Notes under the pieces: generated by a model
Database searches by the model: none
What the model was told of the DNA's origin: nothing
The model's input: only the letters and a program-made list of their open reading frames with translations
Made by a program: the position numbers and the translations under genes
Assembly (NCBI GenBank): GCA_017859785.1
Contig: JAFMMJ010000016.1
Location: forward strand, 1 to 34,911
Length of the DNA stretch: 34,911 nt
Reading direction: 5' to 3'
Origin: Ilumatobacteraceae bacterium
Lineage (GTDB): Bacteria; Actinomycetota; Acidimicrobiia; Acidimicrobiales; Ilumatobacteraceae
Part shown: piece after piece, positions 12,144-34,911 of the stretch
Layout: each line of letters begins with the position of its first letter
Numbering within the stretch: position 1 is the first letter of the stretch

Positions 12144-13016
12144 TCAGGGAGAGCGGAGGAGTTCGATGAGCGAGGAGGTATCCCAACGCGATCCACCGCG
12201 CTGTTCGATCTGGCGATAGAGCTGGTCGACGAGCGCGGTCACCGGAAGCCGGGCGCCGTTGCGGTTCGATTCGGCGAGACAGATGCCGAGGTCCTTGCGC
12301 ATCCATTCCACGGCGAACCCGAACTCATACTCGCCGCGGGCCATCGTGGCGGAGCGGTTCTCCATCTGCCAGCTCTGGGCCGCGCCCTGGGAGATGACGT
12401 CGACGACTTGGTCGACGTCGAGTCCGGCCCGGCGGGCGAAATCGAGCCCCTCGGAGAGTGCCTGAACCAAACCGGCGATGCAGATCTGGTTAACCATCTT
12501 CGTCAGCTGACCAGATCCCGCCGCTCCCAGCCGCCGGCAGCGGCGGGCGTAGGCGTCGATCACCACTTCTGCCCGCTGGAACGCGGCCTCGTCGTCGGCG
12601 CCGCACATGACGGTGAGCTGGCCCGACTCGGCTCCGCCTTGGCCACCCGACACGGGAGCGTCGATGAAGGCCACTCCCCGTTCGGCGCAGGCCGCCGACA
12701 GCTCGCGCGCCAAGTCCGCCGACGCGGTCGTGTGATCGACGAGCACCGAACCCTCAGCCATCGCCTCCAGGCATCCCGCCGGTCCCGTGACCACTTCGCG
12801 AACGTCGTCGTCGTTGCCGACGCAGAGCATCACGAACTCGGCGCCCTCGGCCGCCTCAGCCGGAGTCGGCGCGGCCCGATGACCGTGAATGGCGACCCAG
12901 GCCAGCGCTTTCGACGCGGTCCGGTTGAAGACGGTCACGTCGTGACCGGCGGAAGCGAGGTGACCGGCCATGGGGGCTCCCATGACTCCGAGACCGATGA
13001 AGGCGACGTTGGACAT
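12144..13016 (-). CDS. NAD(P)-dependent beta-hydroxyacid dehydrogenase (3-hydroxyisobutyrate dehydrogenase family)
   Basis: A 290-residue protein with Rossmann motif GLGVMG at 8-13, substrate-binding DAPVSGGQGG from 119, and catalytic K173 in GQLTKMVNQ. The family oxidises 3-hydroxyisobutyrate, tartronate semialdehyde, 4-hydroxybutyrate or related acids. Members acting as imine reductases usually replace the catalytic lysine, so an acid dehydrogenase is more likely here. The hexamer CAGACT ends 6 nt before the ATG. It follows carD on the same strand by 34 bp and could be in the same transcript, but a small hairpin between them suggests partial separation. It differs clearly from the second family member at 33838-34752. 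Confidence 0.9.
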   Translation of the reverse strand: MSNVAFIGLGVMGAPMAGHLASAGHDVTVFNRTASKALAWVAIHGHRAAPTPAEAAEGAEFVMLCVGNDDDVREVVTGPAGCLEAMAEGSVLVDHTTASADLARELSAACAERGVAFIDAPVSGGQGGAESGQLTVMCGADDEAAFQRAEVVIDAYARRCRRLGAAGSGQLTKMVNQICIAGLVQALSEGLDFARRAGLDVDQVVDVISQGAAQSWQMENRSATMARGEYEFGFAVEWMRKDLGICLAESNRNGARLPVTALVDQLYRQIEQRGGSRWDTSSLIELLRSP

Positions 13017-29314: not shown

Positions 29315-31705
29315 TCAGCGGTGACGCCGGCGACCGCCGCCGCCACCGCCGCGACGCTCGGAACCGGGCCCGAGGTCACCGAGCTCACCAGCGAGTTCGG
29401 CGTCGAAGGAGTCGTCGAAGCTGACGGACTCGACGTCGCCGCTCGCGCCAGCACCCTCGGTACGCGATTCGCGGCGCGGGGGCCGGCTCTCGCGCTCGCC
29501 GTCTGAGCCGGAACCACCCGAAGGCGGATCACCAGCGGGCCGAAGGCTCACCTTGCCGCGGTCGTCGATCTCCTCGACGACGACCTCGATCTCGTCACCG
29601 AGCGTGAGGACGTCCTCGACGGCGTTGATCCGCTTGCCACCACCGAGCTTGGAGATGTGAAGCAGACCGTCACGGCCCGGGAGGATGCTGACGAAAGCGC
29701 CGAACTTCGTGATGTTGACGACGCGACCGTTGTAGGTCTTGCCGATCTCAGCCTTCGGCGGGTCGACGATCGCGAGGATCGCCGCCTTCGCCTCCTCCAT
29801 CCGCCAAGCCTCAACGGCGCCGATGGTGACGATGCCAACCGCGCCGTCATCGTCGACGCTGATATCGGCTCCGGTCTCGGCCTGGATCGTGTTGATGATC
29901 TTGCCCTTAGGTCCGATCACCTCTCCGACCTTGTCGATCGGGATGGTGAGCGTGACGATCTTCGGAGCGGTCTCGGCGACCTCGTCACGCGGAGCGCCGA
30001 TAGCGGCGTTCATGACCTCGAGGATCTGCAAGCGAGCCTCACGAGCCTGCTGCAGCGCGGCGGTGAGCACGTCGGCAGGAATACCGTCGATCTTCGTATC
30101 GAGCTGCAAAGCGGTGATCACGTCGGCGGTGCCAGCGACCTTGAAGTCCATGTCACCGAAGGCGTCCTCGGCCCCGAGGATGTCGGTGAGGGTGACGTAG
30201 TTGTCGCCCTCCTTCACGAGACCCATGGCGATACCGGAGACAGCGCCCCGAATCGGGACACCAGCGTCCATGAGCGAGAGGCTCGAGGAGCAGACCGAAC
30301 CCATCGAGGTTGAGCCGTTCGACGACATGACCTCGGACACGAGGCGCAGCGTGTACGCGAAGTCCTCTTGGCTCGGCACCACCGGCAAGACGGCGCGGGC
30401 CGCGAGGGCACCGTGACCGATCTCGCGGCGCTTCGGGGAGCCGACGCGACCGGTCTCTCCGTTCGCCCACGGGGGCATGTTGTAGTGATGCAGGTAGCGC
30501 TTCTCGTTGACGGGCGAGAGCGTGTCGAGCATCTGGTTCATGCGGGGCATAGCCAAGGTGCAGACGTTCATCACCTGGGTCTCACCGCGCTGGAACAGGC
30601 CCGATCCGTGAGCCGTCGGGAGCACGCCGACCTCGGCGGACACCGGACGGAGATCGCGCACTCCACGACCGTCGATGCGGACACCCTCCTCGACGATCCG
30701 CTTGCGCACGAGCTTCTTGGTGAGCGACCGCACGGCCTCCTTGACGGCCTTTTCCTGGCCGGCGAACTCGGCACCGTCGGTGCACAGCGCCGCCACAGCC
30801 TTCGCCGCGGCCGCATCGGTGGCAGCGTTACGGTCCGCCTTGCGGGCGATGGTCACAGCCTCGGCGAGTTCCGCGGCGACCGCCGACTCGACAGCGGCGA
30901 ACACCTCGGGGGTGTAGTCGAGTACCGGGGTGTACTCGAGCGGTTCGATCGGACCGGAGGTAGCGATCACGCTGGCCACCAGCTGGCGCTGGAGGGCGAT
31001 CGACTCCTTGATCCAGATCTTGCATGCCTCGAGCCCTCCGGCGAGAACGCTCTCGTCAACCTTCGGCGCGCCGTCCTCGTAGAAGTAGAAGCTGCGCTCG
31101 GTGCCACCAGCCTCGACCATCATCACGGCAACGTCGCCGTTATCGAGCTCGCGCCCAGCGACGACCAGTTCGAAGGTCGAGGCGTCTGACTCGGCGTAGG
31201 TCGGATGGGGCAGCCACTCGCCGTCGGTCGAGTACGCGATACGCACCGAGCCGAGCGGACCCTCGAAGGGGATGCCCGAGATCATGAGCGCGGCCGAGGC
31301 GGCGTTGATGGAGAGCACGTCGTGAGGGTTCTCCATGTCGACACCGAGCACGGTGGTGACGATCTGGGTCTCGTTGCGGAAACCCTCGGCGAATGCCGGT
31401 CGCAGCGGACGGTCGGTGAGACGACAGGTGAGGATGGCGTCCTCGGTCGGACGACCCTCGCGACGGAAAAACGAACCGGGGATCTTGCCAGCCGCGTACG
31501 ACCGCTCCTCGACGTCGACGGTGAGCGGGAAGAAATCAACCCCCGGTCGCACATCGCGAGCGGCGTTGGCCGTGGTGAGGACTCGGGTGTCGCCGATGGT
31601 GGCGACGACGGCCCCCTGACTTTGCGGGGCGAAGCGCCCAGTCTCGAGAGTGAGGTGACGGTCCGTGCCGGAGATCGGCGCGGACACGCGGATGGGATCA
31701 GCCAT
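29315..31705 (-). CDS. pnp: Polyribonucleotide nucleotidyltransferase (PNPase)
   Basis: A 796-residue PNPase, the phosphorolytic 3' to 5' exoribonuclease of mRNA turnover. Two RNase PH-like domains (about 10-230 and 345-560) flank a helical region. Catalytic acidic residues D514 and D520 lie in TDILGAEDAFGDMDFKVAGT. A KH domain (582-645, GPKG loop at 598-601) and an S1 domain (653-722, GKTYNGRVVNITKFGAFVS) follow. The last 70 residues form an acidic, Gly/Ser/Arg-rich, probably disordered tail ending in a glycine run and RRRHR. The ATG has AGGAG 6 nt upstream, buried in a hairpin. rpsO, often found just upstream of pnp, is absent. Confidence 0.97.
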   Translation of the reverse strand: MADPIRVSAPISGTDRHLTLETGRFAPQSQGAVVATIGDTRVLTTANAARDVRPGVDFFPLTVDVEERSYAAGKIPGSFFRREGRPTEDAILTCRLTDRPLRPAFAEGFRNETQIVTTVLGVDMENPHDVLSINAASAALMISGIPFEGPLGSVRIAYSTDGEWLPHPTYAESDASTFELVVAGRELDNGDVAVMMVEAGGTERSFYFYEDGAPKVDESVLAGGLEACKIWIKESIALQRQLVASVIATSGPIEPLEYTPVLDYTPEVFAAVESAVAAELAEAVTIARKADRNAATDAAAAKAVAALCTDGAEFAGQEKAVKEAVRSLTKKLVRKRIVEEGVRIDGRGVRDLRPVSAEVGVLPTAHGSGLFQRGETQVMNVCTLAMPRMNQMLDTLSPVNEKRYLHHYNMPPWANGETGRVGSPKRREIGHGALAARAVLPVVPSQEDFAYTLRLVSEVMSSNGSTSMGSVCSSSLSLMDAGVPIRGAVSGIAMGLVKEGDNYVTLTDILGAEDAFGDMDFKVAGTADVITALQLDTKIDGIPADVLTAALQQAREARLQILEVMNAAIGAPRDEVAETAPKIVTLTIPIDKVGEVIGPKGKIINTIQAETGADISVDDDGAVGIVTIGAVEAWRMEEAKAAILAIVDPPKAEIGKTYNGRVVNITKFGAFVSILPGRDGLLHISKLGGGKRINAVEDVLTLGDEIEVVVEEIDDRGKVSLRPAGDPPSGGSGSDGERESRPPRRESRTEGAGASGDVESVSFDDSFDAELAGELGDLGPGSERRGGGGGGRRRHR

Positions 31706-31739
31706 GAAAGGCTCCTTTCAAACCCGGAGCGACTCCGGG
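31706..31739 (-). promoter_or_regulatory. pnp leader: hairpin over the ribosome-binding site plus a second hairpin
   Basis: GAAAGG-N2-CCTTTC (31706-31719) is a perfect inverted repeat containing the Shine-Dalgarno AGGAG (31712-31716). Four nt farther upstream CCCGGAG-CGA-CTCCGGG (31723-31739) forms a second stem. This suggests translational autoregulation of pnp. The remaining 31740-31929 is non-coding leader or promoter region without recognisable genes. Confidence 0.6.
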
Positions 31740-31929
31740 CCATGTGGAGCGACCAGCCGGTTCCCAGTTGGCGGACCCGCGATGACGGCCTGCTCGAAGG
31801 GAGCGGCTCAGTCCCACCGGCGGGGCGGGCAACCGGTAACCGACGACGAAGTCGCTCGGTGTTTCGGTGAGGCCTCATTGGACCTCGCGCCGAAGCGTAG
31901 CGGACGGTCGGTCCGGTCCCTCGGATGGG

Positions 31930-33084
31930 TCAGACCGTGGCCACCGCCACGGAGCGCTCCAACACAGCAAGACGTCCGAGCAACTCGTCGATCTCGACGT
32001 AGCAGGACTGCAGATGGCGACCGCCTCCGGAGGTCAGCCCGGTACGCCCGTGCATCACTCGACGGTTATCCACCATGTACATCTCCCCGGCTGCCATCGG
32101 GATCTGGATCCGATACGCGGGATCCTCGCGCATCGCTCCAAAGGTCGTGTAAGCGTCGTAGAGCGCGTCCATCTCGTCGGGATCCACGAGAAAGGGTTGG
32201 CAGGAGTGGTTCGAGTAGCGGACCGACCGCACATCACCTCGGGGGTCGAGCTCAATGGTGGATCCCTCGGCGGTGAGTTCGATGTCCTGATCGCGGAAGT
32301 GGAAACGCATCGTCGTGCGAACGAGCAGGTCGAAGGCCGCCCGATTACTCGACCGCAAATCAGCCGCGACTTTGAATCCGTCGACGAGAGTCGTCGCACC
32401 GCCACCGGCGTCGTTCACGAGGAAGTGCTGCAGTTGAACGGTTGGCGCGGGGTCGCGGTAGCCCTCGTCGGTGTGGAGCACGAGGGGGAGCCCGGTGTAC
32501 GCCACGGAGTTCGCGTTCTCTATCGAGCGAACATCGAAGACCCGTCCCCAACTCGTCGTCCTGACCCGACCGAGGTCCTCTCCGATCTCGGCGACAATCC
32601 CCTCTCGGTGCTCGATACCGGTCAAGATCGCTACACCGTTGGCACGGAACGCGCGGAGCCACGAGATTCGCGCGGACATATCGCTCACGAGCTCAGCGTG
32701 GGAGATCCGGGCGACCCGGTCGGCGAACGTGCCATCCCAGAGTTCTGGCCGGTGTGGCTGCCACCTCGCTCCCGCGGAGTAGTCGTGCACGTTCAACCAT
32801 GCGGACCCGAAGGTGCTTTCGTGTCCATCCGGCCAACGGAGGTGCAACGCACCGTCGACGGTCACTGTGACGCCGTCAGGCTTCAACCAGCGGTCGAGCC
32901 GGGAGGTCTCCTCGACCCGGTGCTGGGTCTGAGGGTGGAGCGCACCAGGTGAGTTGTCCCGCAACCAGCGGTGATGAAAACGACTCGTCGACCCATCGGA
33001 CCAGGTCACCAAGACCTCTCGATCGGCGGTCTCGGCCGCGCTGATGAAGCGGACCGGCATCATCGGATCAGCATCAGTGCGCAT
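31930..33084 (-). CDS. Gamma-butyrobetaine dioxygenase-like 2-oxoglutarate/Fe(II) oxygenase
   Basis: A 384-residue TauD/TfdA-superfamily enzyme with the two-domain layout of gamma-butyrobetaine dioxygenase (BBOX). The N-terminal domain (about 10-105) contains FHHRWLRDNSPGALHPQTQHR, but the cysteines that bind structural zinc in BBOX are missing. The catalytic domain has H204 and D206 (LHTDEGY), the distal H345 (RVMHGR) and R356 (GGGRHLQSC) for 2-oxoglutarate. It should hydroxylate an unactivated carbon; a betaine, carnitine-like or other small acid is possible. The ATG at 33084 overlaps the aldolase stop by 11 nt; ATGs at 33063 and 33060 are alternatives. It is the last gene of its operon. 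Confidence 0.88.
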   Translation of the reverse strand: MRTDADPMMPVRFISAAETADREVLVTWSDGSTSRFHHRWLRDNSPGALHPQTQHRVEETSRLDRWLKPDGVTVTVDGALHLRWPDGHESTFGSAWLNVHDYSAGARWQPHRPELWDGTFADRVARISHAELVSDMSARISWLRAFRANGVAILTGIEHREGIVAEIGEDLGRVRTTSWGRVFDVRSIENANSVAYTGLPLVLHTDEGYRDPAPTVQLQHFLVNDAGGGATTLVDGFKVAADLRSSNRAAFDLLVRTTMRFHFRDQDIELTAEGSTIELDPRGDVRSVRYSNHSCQPFLVDPDEMDALYDAYTTFGAMREDPAYRIQIPMAAGEMYMVDNRRVMHGRTGLTSGGGRHLQSCYVEIDELLGRLAVLERSVAVATV

Positions 33085-33841
33085 AGTCGCTCCCCATCGC
33101 GTCGAGGGCGCCTCGAATCGCGTCGAGGTGCAGCCGGCTTCCCTCTGGGTATTCGAGCCACTGCCGACAGGCGAGTGCCGCCGTGGCGTCGTCAACGAGC
33201 GAGAGTTCGCGGCCGGTCGACAGCGCGATCACCTGGAGTTGCGCCGCCCGCTCGAGGTAGTAGAGGTCATCGAAGGCCTCCTCCACGTTCCGACCGACGA
33301 CGATCACACCGTGGTTTCCGAGGAAGAGGATGTCGTGATGGTCACCGAGCATGTCGGCCACCCGCTCCCCTTCTGAGGGATCGAGCGCCATCCCCGCGTA
33401 GTCGCGGTCGTAGGCGATCCGGCCGTGGAATCGGCAGGCGTTCTGATCGAGCATCAAGAACTCGAAGTCGCGAAGGCAGGTGAGGGCGGTGGCGTACGGC
33501 ATGTGGGTGTGGAGCACGCACCTCGCCCGCGGCACTCGCGCGTGGAGGTGGCCGTGCAACACCCACGCGGTGGGGTCGACGCCGTGCCCGATCGGGTCGT
33601 CGTCGAGACGCTCCGAGTCGACCACCACGAGATCACTGGCCCGGGCGCGCGAGAAGTGCATGCCGCGCGGGTTGATGAGGAATCGCGAGCCGGCAGGGTC
33701 GACGGCCACGCTGAAGTGGTTGGCGACCCCCTCATGCATGTTGAGGTGCGCGGTCCACTGGAAGGCGGCCGCGAGGTCCTCGCGGAGCTCTCTCTCGGTG
33801 ACCGGAGCGCCGCTCGGCAGTTGTGTGTCGAGGGCCGTCAT
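33074..33841 (-). CDS. Class II aldolase/adducin-family protein
   Basis: A 255-residue zinc-dependent aldolase/epimerase-type protein. Zinc ligands H111 and H113 lie in LHTHMPYATAL and H177 in GNHGVIV. The family contains fuculose- and rhamnulose-phosphate aldolases, ribulose-phosphate epimerase and 3-oxo-tetronate-4-phosphate decarboxylases. The glutamate that acts as base in fuculose aldolase has no obvious equivalent in TAWVLHGHLH (91-100), so decarboxylation or another reaction is possible. ATG at 33841 overlaps the upstream dehydrogenase stop (ATGA) and has GAGGAG upstream; the longer open frame to 33922 is rejected. The 3' end overlaps the dioxygenase gene. Confidence 0.9.
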   Translation of the reverse strand: MTALDTQLPSGAPVTERELREDLAAAFQWTAHLNMHEGVANHFSVAVDPAGSRFLINPRGMHFSRARASDLVVVDSERLDDDPIGHGVDPTAWVLHGHLHARVPRARCVLHTHMPYATALTCLRDFEFLMLDQNACRFHGRIAYDRDYAGMALDPSEGERVADMLGDHHDILFLGNHGVIVVGRNVEEAFDDLYYLERAAQLQVIALSTGRELSLVDDATAALACRQWLEYPEGSRLHLDAIRGALDAMGSDYAH

Positions 33842-34752
33842 GTGATCTCCTCTGGGAAACCGGGAGCCCGAAGGTCGGTGGACAGGGCGTCCTCGAGGAG
33901 GCGGACGACCTCCGGAGACCACGCCGATCCGCCATAGGCCTCACGGGCTCTAATGAATGTCTGGTACACGTGTCCGGCCACATCCAGTGGCACACCGGAT
34001 TCACGTCCGAAGGCCATGGCGAATCCAAGGTCCTTCACCGCGAGATCCATGGTGAAGTTGATGTTGTAGGAGCCGTTCAGGATGACCTGGCTCTCGGTCT
34101 CGTGGACGAAGCTGTTGCCCGACGAGTGCTTGATCACCTCAAAGGCCGTGGCGAGATCCACCCCGCTCCGCTTGGCGAGCATGAGCGCCTCGCCGGCCGC
34201 GACGAGGTGAGTCAGAGCGAGCATGTTCGTGATCACCTTGATGGTCGCAGCCGACCCGAGCGGGCCGACGTGGATGACCGGGCTCCCGAGGCTGTCGAGG
34301 ACGTCACGCTGCCGCTCGCGCAACTCGTCGTCGCCGCCCACGAGCACGGTGATCTCGCCCCGCGCGGCCATATGCACGCCGCCGGTGACGGGAGCTTCGA
34401 GCACTGCCACTCCGCGCTCAGCCGCAACCGCCGCAAGCCGCAGGGTCTCCGAGCGGTCGTTCGTGCTGCAGTCGATCCAGCAGGTGCCCTCCCGACCGGA
34501 GAGCGCGTCGAGCACGCCACCCTCGGCCGCTACGACCGCATCGATGACGGCGGGCGAGGGCAGGCAGGTGATCACCGTGTCCGCTGACGCGCACACTTCC
34601 GCGATCGATGCGGCGCCGATCGCCCCATCGGCGACGAGGCCGGCGACCGCGCCAGCGTCGAGGTCATGGACGACGAGCTCGTGACCGCCCCTCAGCACCG
34701 AACGGGCGAGATGGCGACCCACATTTCCGAGACCGATGAATCCAATCGCCAT
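33838..34752 (-). CDS. 3-hydroxyisobutyrate dehydrogenase-family oxidoreductase
   Basis: A 304-residue NAD(P)-dependent beta-hydroxyacid dehydrogenase. The Rossmann loop GLGNVG is at 7-12, the substrate loop EAPVTGGVHMA from 119, and catalytic K172 in TIKVITNMLAL. Related enzymes oxidise 3-hydroxyisobutyrate, D-glycerate/tartronate semialdehyde or four-carbon sugar acids (LtnD). Coupling with a class II aldolase recalls the LtnD-OtnC pair of threonate catabolism, but the OtnK-type kinase of that pathway is not in the window. A good GGAGG lies upstream of the ATG. The region 34753-34843 before it contains only a hairpin. Confidence 0.92.
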   Translation of the reverse strand: MAIGFIGLGNVGRHLARSVLRGGHELVVHDLDAGAVAGLVADGAIGAASIAEVCASADTVITCLPSPAVIDAVVAAEGGVLDALSGREGTCWIDCSTNDRSETLRLAAVAAERGVAVLEAPVTGGVHMAARGEITVLVGGDDELRERQRDVLDSLGSPVIHVGPLGSAATIKVITNMLALTHLVAAGEALMLAKRSGVDLATAFEVIKHSSGNSFVHETESQVILNGSYNINFTMDLAVKDLGFAMAFGRESGVPLDVAGHVYQTFIRAREAYGGSAWSPEVVRLLEDALSTDLRAPGFPEEIT

Positions 34753-34816
34753 CGGGACCTCCGTGCTGAACAGGGCGCCGACGGCGCCGGACCCGCGCAG
34801 TCTGGCAGAAACAGAT

Positions 34817-34837
34817 CGTCGGGCTGATCACCCGACG
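34817..34837 (-). terminator. Hairpin after the truncated upstream gene
   Basis: CGTCGGG (34817-34823) and CCCGACG (34831-34837) pair around a 7-nt loop, just after the stop codon at 34844-34846. No clear U-tract follows on the minus strand, so termination may be partial. Confidence 0.4.
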
Positions 34838-34843
34838 CAAAAA

Positions 34844-34911
34844 TCAGCGGCGCAGACCCTGGTCGGCGACGATCTTGCGATAGCGATCGACGTCGATGGA
34901 GCGCACGTAGT
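34844..34911 (-). CDS. C-terminal end of an unidentified gene, cut by the window
   Basis: On the minus strand an open frame enters from beyond the window edge and ends YVRSIDVDRYRKIVADQGLRR followed by TGA. The spacing to the next gene (91 bp) and normal codon use suggest a real gene end. Such a C-terminus is compatible with a periplasmic substrate-binding protein or an enzyme, but 22 residues are too few for a call. Confidence 0.5.
   Translation of the reverse strand, partial: YVRSIDVDRYRKIVADQGLRR

Follow-up and report, generated by a model that had tools for sequence, protein, structure and literature searches.

A coupled dehydrogenase, aldolase-fold protein and BBOX/TmpA-family oxygenase between rpsO and pnp of an Ilumatobacteraceae bacterium: a candidate betaine-catabolic cassette

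In the TmpA/TmpB system, an Fe(II)/2-oxoglutarate (2OG) oxygenase hydroxylates a trimethylammonium compound, whose bond to the acid group is then cleaved by another enzyme (PMC8177086). An oxygenase of the same family (BB) is encoded by the last gene of a three-gene set described here from an Ilumatobacteraceae bacterium (GenBank assembly GCA_017859785.1, contig JAFMMJ010000016.1; the whole analysed stretch of 34,911 nucleotides is termed the window), where it follows genes for a beta-hydroxyacid dehydrogenase of the HIBADH/LtnD superfamily (DH) and a class II aldolase-fold protein (AL). TmpA is the nearest solved structure to BB, but the trio differs from TmpA/TmpB in that the phosphonate-binding Arg is missing and there is no HD gene; DH and AL are present instead. 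The four-carbon acid sugar pathway of LtnD, OtnI, OtnK and OtnC shares superfamilies with DH and with the fold of AL (PMC12540250). It differs from the trio in that OtnK has no match in the genome, the Glu of OtnC is lost from AL and the scores fall far below the model cut-offs.

Carnitine catabolism (BBOX, L-carnitine dehydrogenase, BKACE and a thioesterase) provides a further comparison, since nine of the 11 Burkholderiales AL proteins in the clade of the window protein are encoded in such clusters. The trio DH is of a different family from carnitine dehydrogenase, and neither BKACE nor carnitine dehydrogenase has a match in the window or in the contig that continues it, although both kinds occur on another contig of the genome (C89). 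The same families also meet in a genomic island of Arctic SAR11 bacteria (mBio 2025; PMC12421898), which carries HADH (3-hydroxyisobutyrate dehydrogenase), ALDH, two BBOX genes, a class II aldolase, BKACE, CDH and a glycine betaine transporter, spread over 17–20 genes rather than forming one coupled trio. The section on the island offers no pathway for the aldolase; the co-occurrence of these families is thus already in print, without, in that section, an interpretation as betaine breakdown. The oxygenase and aldolase of a SAR11 locus (L147) are 30% and 44% identical to those of the window. Among the hits listed by literature searches, which covered few subscription titles, no paper described this trio or assigned class II aldolases to betaine metabolism.

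The trio lies on the minus strand, in the order DH (34752-33838; 304 aa; PF03446 and PF14833), AL (33841-33074; 255 aa; PF00596, E 4.7e-45) and BB (33084-31930; 384 aa; PF02668 and PF06155). DH and AL overlap by 4 nt (ATGA), and AL and BB by 11 nt (ATGCGCACTGA). An earlier interpretation made from the letters alone (the sequence-only reading) had described this overlap-coupled row and named the three families; the row is present as described, the Pfam matches agree with the names, and both overlaps, together with the starts of the genes, are identical in a related genome (G618). The proteins of the two genomes are 95% (DH), 91% (AL) and 93% (BB) identical. Since the DNA changes between the genomes concentrate at third codon positions (changes at positions 1/2/3: DH 12/5/104, AL 19/10/85, BB 31/10/142), all three genes are under purifying selection. 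The window is one entire contig (C80) of a 1.96-Mb genome (G000) that is 98.8% complete. We read the trio as a catabolic cassette for a small betaine-type acid with a trimethylammonium group, which it would hydroxylate, oxidise and cleave in turn, and give this reading a probability of about one half.

The best NCBIfam model of BB is TmpA (NF049936; 310.2 bits, cut-off 400), followed by BBOX (TIGR02409; 290.3 bits, cut-off 414.75), and the best PDB match is likewise TmpA (6npb; E 3e-61, compared with 1.5e-34 for human BBOX). The iron triad is conserved (His204, Asp206 and His345). In human BBOX the trimethylammonium cage consists of Tyr177, Trp181 and Tyr194 (PMC13257696), and the alignment places Trp, Phe and Tyr at these positions of BB, which, judged from its sequence, keeps an aromatic cage for a trimethylammonium group. 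BB thus combines PF02668 and PF06155 with the HxD...H triad and, by alignment, the aromatic cage of the BBOX/TmpA superfamily.

The opposite end of the predicted pocket is altered. TmpA holds its phosphonate by Asn187, Asn287 and Arg288 (PMC9296572); BB has Ser, Asn and His there, and a Glu directly after the HTD motif. Because the phosphonate-holding Arg is lost, a phosphonate substrate is unlikely. Human BBOX, for which no corresponding Arg is described, is said to hold the acid end by two Asn residues (PMC9296572) or by Asn191 and the main chain of Tyr205 (PMC13257696), while DfmD, like BB, has Ser at the Asn187 position (PMC9296572). This combination of cage and anion site is common to three of 43 rows of the site table (the window, G618 and the Lysobacterales locus L072), and in a 42-row tree the same three form a separate clade (100/99) outside the TmpA clade; L203, L209, L213, L221 and L227, which failed the ORF filter, are in neither set, and own_C111, a fragment, was omitted from the tree. 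BB was accordingly rejected both as a gamma-butyrobetaine dioxygenase (score below cut-off, Ser at the Asn191 site) and as TmpA (score below cut-off, Ser/Asn/His at the anion sites, separate clade).

Oxygenases of the window type are thinly spread. At E <= 1e-60 they were detected in one of 369 genomes in the class of G633, this being the genome of L072 itself, and in 16 of 289 in that of G634, the closest of them at 41% identity. Within the order, 48 of 248 genomes gave oxygenase matches at E <= 1e-30; the best by score, the window aside, was 37% identical, and shorter partial matches reached 44%.

AL passes two NCBIfam models, PRK07490 ('hypothetical protein'; 301.8 bits, cut-off 260) and PRK06486 ('aldolase'; 277.1 bits, cut-off 269). 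Its metal-binding triad is conserved (His111, His113 and His177), but the position of FucA Glu73, where E. coli YgbL/OtnC retains Glu, is occupied by Ala92. Of 93 AL proteins, 92 have Ala and one has Thr at this position, as counted with a motif pattern rather than a full alignment. A canonical class II aldolase of the FucA type was therefore rejected despite the His triad, and so was OtnC (43.9 bits, cut-off 250), since Ala92 replaces the catalytic Glu.

The AlphaFold model of AL (mean predicted local distance difference test score, pLDDT, 92.1) was compared again with the PDB entries matched by Foldseek. Among entries for iron enzymes, the Z scores were 29.0 and 26.6 for TqaM, 28.6 for NovR and 28.3, 28.0 and 27.8 for POD, while an aldolase II superfamily protein of Pseudomonas syringae (3ocr) scored 28.7; adducin (22.9), YgbL/OtnC (22.7) and FucA (22.2) lay further away. 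Of the solved structures to which an activity is ascribed, NovR, TqaM and POD, titled in the PDB as a non-haem iron oxygenase, a 'none-heme iron enzyme' and a pyruvic oxime dioxygenase, are the nearest (Z about 28–29), at 22–27% identity. The substrate of POD, pyruvic oxime, is unrelated to betaines, as are those of NovR and TqaM. POD is an Fe(II)-dependent dioxygenase of this fold that keeps the three His residues and does not keep Glu73 (PMC5216522). Given these nearest folds, the loss of Glu73 and the POD precedent, it is quite possible that AL uses Fe(II) and is not a Zn-dependent aldolase.

DH combines PF03446 and PF14833 with a conserved Lys172, invariant in six of six aligned sequences, the catalytic Lys of the family; it therefore belongs to the beta-hydroxyacid dehydrogenase superfamily. 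Its scores with the NCBIfam models ThreonDh (177.9 bits, cut-off 350) and HIBADH (173.4 bits) are both below cut-off. An assignment as L-threonate dehydrogenase LtnD was rejected on this score and on the 30% identity to E. coli YgbJ. The sequence-only reading had likened DH and AL to an LtnD/OtnC pair, and this likeness is not supported: DH reaches 178 of 350 bits and AL 44 of 250, AL has Ala for Glu, and in structure the AL model lies closer to several Fe(II) oxygenases than to OtnC. A second beta-hydroxyacid dehydrogenase gene, 33% identical to DH in its product, occurs in the window (12156-13007, minus strand).

The genomic context of AL was surveyed at 80 loci, taken among the matches listed from one scan of named genomes, with neighbours assigned by tblastn at 1e-10; many of the loci end at contig ends. 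AL is directly beside BKACE at 13 of these loci (nine Burkholderiales, in line; four Pelagibacteraceae, divergent), and at a fourteenth locus (L094) the BKACE match is distant and weak. An L-carnitine-dehydrogenase-like gene is found at 8/80 loci, an HD gene at 10, a BBOX-family gene at seven, and DH directly beside AL at two. At one Burkholderiales locus that was typed, the carnitine dehydrogenase scored 604.6 bits (cut-off 414). AL also adjoins a GbdR-like regulator and a GbcA-like Rieske oxygenase in Pseudomonas (L099; both below cut-offs) and lies near a CaiD-like hydratase in Rhodobacteraceae (L129; below cut-off).

In the AL tree, the window protein falls into a clade of 17 rows (SH-aLRT 99), and a quaternary-ammonium-type neighbour is present at 15 of the 17 loci; this count takes the window and G618 on their BBOX genes and G161 (locus L047) on ALDH and DH alone. 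The tree requires at least two changes for BKACE linkage, six each for HD and BBOX and three for DH, and because several changes are needed the links between AL and its partners arose repeatedly and were not inherited once. AL was found in 11 of 248 genomes of the order at 1e-40 and in two of 396 of a draw from the phylum at 1e-55, the own genome being included in both. Plasmid matches at 1e-40 comprised 125 AL and 32 oxygenase records, all below 60% identity. L130/L204 and L082/L205 are the same genes entered twice.

The complete row DH-AL-BB is found in the window, in G618 and in Oceanibacterium hippocampi (L130), whose oxygenase comes from another clade. In Lysobacterales L072 the order is AL-BB-HD, a few genes past a BCCT transporter (450.5 bits, cut-off 407.55), and in SAR11 L147 all three genes lie within 11 kb, together with ALDH and BKACE. 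Two congeners of the window genome (G617, the Actinomycetota metagenome-assembled genome WB4_4_245, locus L071; and G623) have DMGDH-like and MttB-like genes directly before DH-AL and no BB. G161, of the same family and another genus, shows the order ALDH-DH-AL-ADH-enolase-FAD oxidase and gave no BBOX match at 1e-30. The dioxygenase is thus linked to DH-AL in the window, G618 and Oceanibacterium and to AL in L072, and is absent beside DH-AL in G617, G623 and G161, so that the linkage on which the sequence-only reading depended stands in part of the homologous neighbourhoods and not in others.

Some of these neighbourhoods hold further observations. In G161, an open reading frame (ORF; L047:1548-2312) with, by eye, a VIT/CCC1-like start ends in an 87% copy of the C-terminus of the neighbouring enolase-family protein and is either a chimera or an assembly error. 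In the SAR11 single-cell genome AG-365-D19 (L228), AL and a divergent BKACE gene accompany glycine-betaine-type ABC genes, BBOX, a GPDP-like gene and ALDH (names partly by eye), and DH lies beyond these genes (L147); the set closely resembles the Arctic SAR11 island. A small HD-domain family recurs near AL and BBOX genes (L072, L073–L076, L081, L082, L084, L087 and L121). The L072 member, the sole one typed, has a weak likeness to TmpB (47.8 bits, cut-off 300), and the family may be an additional HD-type oxygenase that acts on quaternary ammonium compounds.

The remainder of the genome contains four more BBOX-family genes, on contigs C89, C42 (beside an HD gene), C73 and C111. On C89 (L067), a DmdA-like gene (dimethylsulfoniopropionate demethylase; 527 bits, cut-off 410), a betaine-aldehyde dehydrogenase (717, cut-off 593), a BBOX-family gene (226.7, cut-off 414.75), a BKACE gene passing no cut-off and, truncated where the contig stops, a carnitine-dehydrogenase-like gene (352 of 592) form one row; an ABC binding protein of peptide type, recognised by eye, flanks it. 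An ORF on C111 (L070:2980-5202), which runs to the contig end, combines a TmpB-like HD domain (about 265-437) with a TmpA-like domain (about 520-740) and may represent a phosphonate pathway fused into one protein; by eye, its N-terminal part resembles the alkaline phosphatase superfamily. Frames of 788–835 aa that match the oxygenase in their C-terminal part only were also seen in G034, G084, G107 and G214. An HD protein is encoded near a trimethyllysine-dioxygenase-like BBOX gene both here and in G134 (L069:4433-6054 and L066:2392-5773), and the HD protein of the own genome matched no NCBIfam model at 1e-10. The DMGDH family is represented by two genes, on C43 and C110 (37% and 30% identity). 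The cell thus seems able to handle a number of quaternary ammonium compounds, and the cassette probably adds to these sets rather than being the sole carnitine set.

The best reading of the context is that the trio acts on a betaine: its AL relatives stand next to BKACE and carnitine genes, and the MttB-like and DMGDH-like genes of G617 and G623 directly precede DH-AL. From the features above we infer a substrate, an order of steps, a metal and a cleavage chemistry. BB would grip the trimethylammonium head in its aromatic cage and hydroxylate the chain with Fe(II), 2OG and O2; DH would oxidise the new hydroxyl, giving a keto acid; and AL, probably using Fe(II) as NovR, TqaM and POD do, would cleave the chain beside the carboxylate to leave a shorter betaine such as glycine betaine. 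Glycine betaine is also the product of the TmpA/TmpB pathway. The DMGDH-family enzymes encoded elsewhere in the genome could demethylate the shortened betaine. A hydroxylate-oxidise-cleave route for a betaine, as the sequence-only reading had proposed, is thus plausible.

A more specific form, which we offer tentatively and think rather doubtful, would be an alpha-oxidation of trimethylammonium acids, in which BB would hydroxylate the carbon beside the carboxylate, DH would produce the 2-oxo acid and an Fe(II)-dependent AL would remove the carboxyl carbon with O2, for example converting beta-alanine betaine into glycine betaine. The proposal is drawn by analogy: TmpA hydroxylates next to the phosphonate (PMC9296572) and LtnD oxidises threonate to 2-oxo-threonate (PMC12540250), and by this analogy beta-alanine betaine, which corresponds to the TmpA substrate with a carboxylate in place of the phosphonate, becomes a candidate.

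Several observations weigh against a betaine cassette. Two entries of other title or activity score near the iron oxygenases with the AL model, namely 4xxf (titled fuculose aldolase; Z 27.4) and 2z7b (pyridine-dicarboxylate decarboxylase; Z 26.5), and these lower our confidence in the betaine reading. As 4xxf is also without the Glu (Gly in the alignment), the fold and the loss of Glu are no proof of an oxygenase; moreover, the Z gap to OtnC and FucA owes partly to aligned length (about 246 versus 200 residues). The BB model is only moderate (pLDDT 73.2, with residues 190-213 below 50), so the cage rests on the alignment; the model was used for fold confirmation alone, with TmpA, human BBOX and DfmD as top matches. 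Judging from the residues of the altered anion pocket (Ser, His and the Glu after HTD), the far end of the substrate may be no plain carboxylate. As to context, 60 of the 80 AL loci have no BKACE, HD or BBOX gene in the stretch covered, and within the 17-row clade L077 and L079 have no quaternary-ammonium neighbour. The absence of BBOX beside DH-AL in G617, G623 and G161 makes it no obligate partner. Finally, a galactonate-dehydratase-like enolase-family gene lies near DH-AL in G161 (273 bits, cut-off 311) and in L130 (59% identical to that of G161), which a betaine route does not explain.

The 2z7b match also suits a variant of the carnitine route (PMC2131755), in which BB would convert gamma-butyrobetaine into carnitine (or its D-isomer), DH would oxidise this to 3-dehydrocarnitine and AL, acting as OtnC does on its phosphorylated substrate, would decarboxylate the beta-keto acid without CoA or O2. 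Dehydrocarnitine is a four-carbon beta-keto acid, as is the substrate of OtnC, and the AL clade keeps company with BKACE in both Burkholderiales and SAR11, in the former also with L-carnitine dehydrogenase. Where BKACE occurs, however, AL would compete with it for the same substrate; BB stays below the BBOX cut-off and has Ser for Asn191, and AL is without the Glu of OtnC. The own genome has ALDH, BBOX, BKACE and carnitine-dehydrogenase-like genes on C89, although the C89 oxygenase scores lower on the BBOX model than BB does, the BKACE gene passes no cut-off and the dehydrogenase gene is truncated. We regard this route as rather doubtful. That the three genes are an assortment at an insertion hotspot, with DH and AL cooperating and BBOX an unrelated neighbour, seems unlikely. 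Partners do vary at the same pnp border, where BBOX can be missing beside DH-AL, but the 11-nt overlap is retained in G618, and an oxygenase directly follows AL both in Lysobacterales, from the same clade, and in Oceanibacterium, from a different one.

Two further explanations seem very unlikely. BB could be a TmpA-like hydroxylase of 2-trimethylaminoethylphosphonate, with DH and AL in place of TmpB. TmpA is indeed its best match in PDB and NCBIfam, and in L072, which has the nearest relative of BB from outside the genus, the next gene encodes the HD protein with a weak TmpB likeness; against this, the score of BB is insufficient, it falls outside the TmpA clade, Arg288 is replaced by His, the cassette has no HD gene and the genome carries a separate TmpB-like and TmpA-like ORF on C111. 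Breakdown of a four-carbon sugar acid, with an unrelated or missing kinase, is if anything the more remote of the two. It would accommodate the galactonate-dehydratase-like genes of G161 and L130 and the fact that L-threonate dehydrogenase is the best NCBIfam match of DH. The OtnK domain (PF07005), however, gave no match in the genome, which is 98.8% complete, although it was matched in three of 14 control genomes, E. coli included, which bears out the absence of a sugar-acid kinase noted by the sequence-only reading. The OtnC score of AL and the lost catalytic Glu point the same way, and two other cassettes of the genus carry MttB-like and DMGDH-like genes.

Two housekeeping genes, rpsO and pnp, flank the trio. 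The gene cut by the window edge upstream of DH, which the sequence-only reading had left as of unknown type, is rpsO (ribosomal protein S15; 3′ end at 34844..34911, minus strand): the final 55 bases of the window are the opening of contig C69 of the same genome (47 of them verified as an exact match), which holds the remainder of rpsO (locus L003). The genes beyond 34911, which that reading had wished to see read, are rpsO and then, on what we take from the translated sequences, ribF, truB, rbfA, infB, nusA and rimP. Since G618 has the whole stretch from rpsO through DH-AL-BB to pnp on a single contig, the junction of rpsO with the trio is no assembly artefact. A gap of 91 nt (34753..34843) with a terminator-like hairpin (34837-34817) separates rpsO from DH. 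BB is followed by a 224-nt leader (31706..31929) and by pnp (polynucleotide phosphorylase, named by recognition; 31705-29315), the downstream border of the cassette; these features are all on the minus strand. No sigma-70 promoter was found in the scanned region, and the single terminator-like hairpin found there compares with 1.0 expected by chance. An Rfam search (cmscan of window positions 31600-34911) gave no match in the pnp leader and one sub-threshold match inside the DH gene.

The N-terminus of pnp was searched, and matched, in 31 of 31 genomes (the own genome and 30 relatives), and the rpsO border was compared in 18 relatives, 15 of the genus and three of the family (the upstream DNA of 17, plus G617). 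Among the 16 genus genomes, the own included, rpsO is directly upstream of pnp in 12, and DH-AL is upstream of pnp in four (G000, G618, G617 and G623), in two of these (G000 and G618) in the DH-AL-BB form. In all three further family members rpsO adjoins pnp. For G617, whose rpsO contig stops soon after rpsO, and for G623 (72% complete), in which rpsO was not found, only the pnp border of the cassette was seen. The pnp-proximal part of the leader is similar in the four carriers and in two cassette-free relatives, which places the cassette upstream of the pnp leader. Across these six aligned genus members, the leader (31706-31929) contains the conserved blocks GGTTACCGGTTGCC ... CCAACTGG.AACCG ... 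GAAAGGAGCC. The pnp genes of carriers are 98–100% identical to that of the window, compared with 77–92% for the remaining congeners (partial query). The simplest history would be one insertion followed by partner exchange.

The rpsO–pnp site is therefore an example of a catabolic module that varies inside a housekeeping locus within one genus. The trio itself points to quaternary-ammonium catabolism of the BBOX/TmpA kind with a role, as yet unproven, for an aldolase-fold and possibly Fe(II)-dependent enzyme. The NCBIfam models that AL passes bear the names 'hypothetical protein' and 'aldolase', yet its relatives turn up repeatedly next to betaine and carnitine genes, in Actinomycetota and Burkholderiales as well as in Lysobacterales and SAR11. 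Should these relatives prove to be Fe(II) oxygenases acting on quaternary ammonium compounds, three small proteins would make it possible to test a step now missing from the turnover of these nitrogen-rich osmolytes. Should the alpha-oxidation hold true, class II aldolase-fold oxygenases would be a general and so far overlooked component of betaine and carnitine degradation in bacteria ranging from SAR11 to Burkholderiales.

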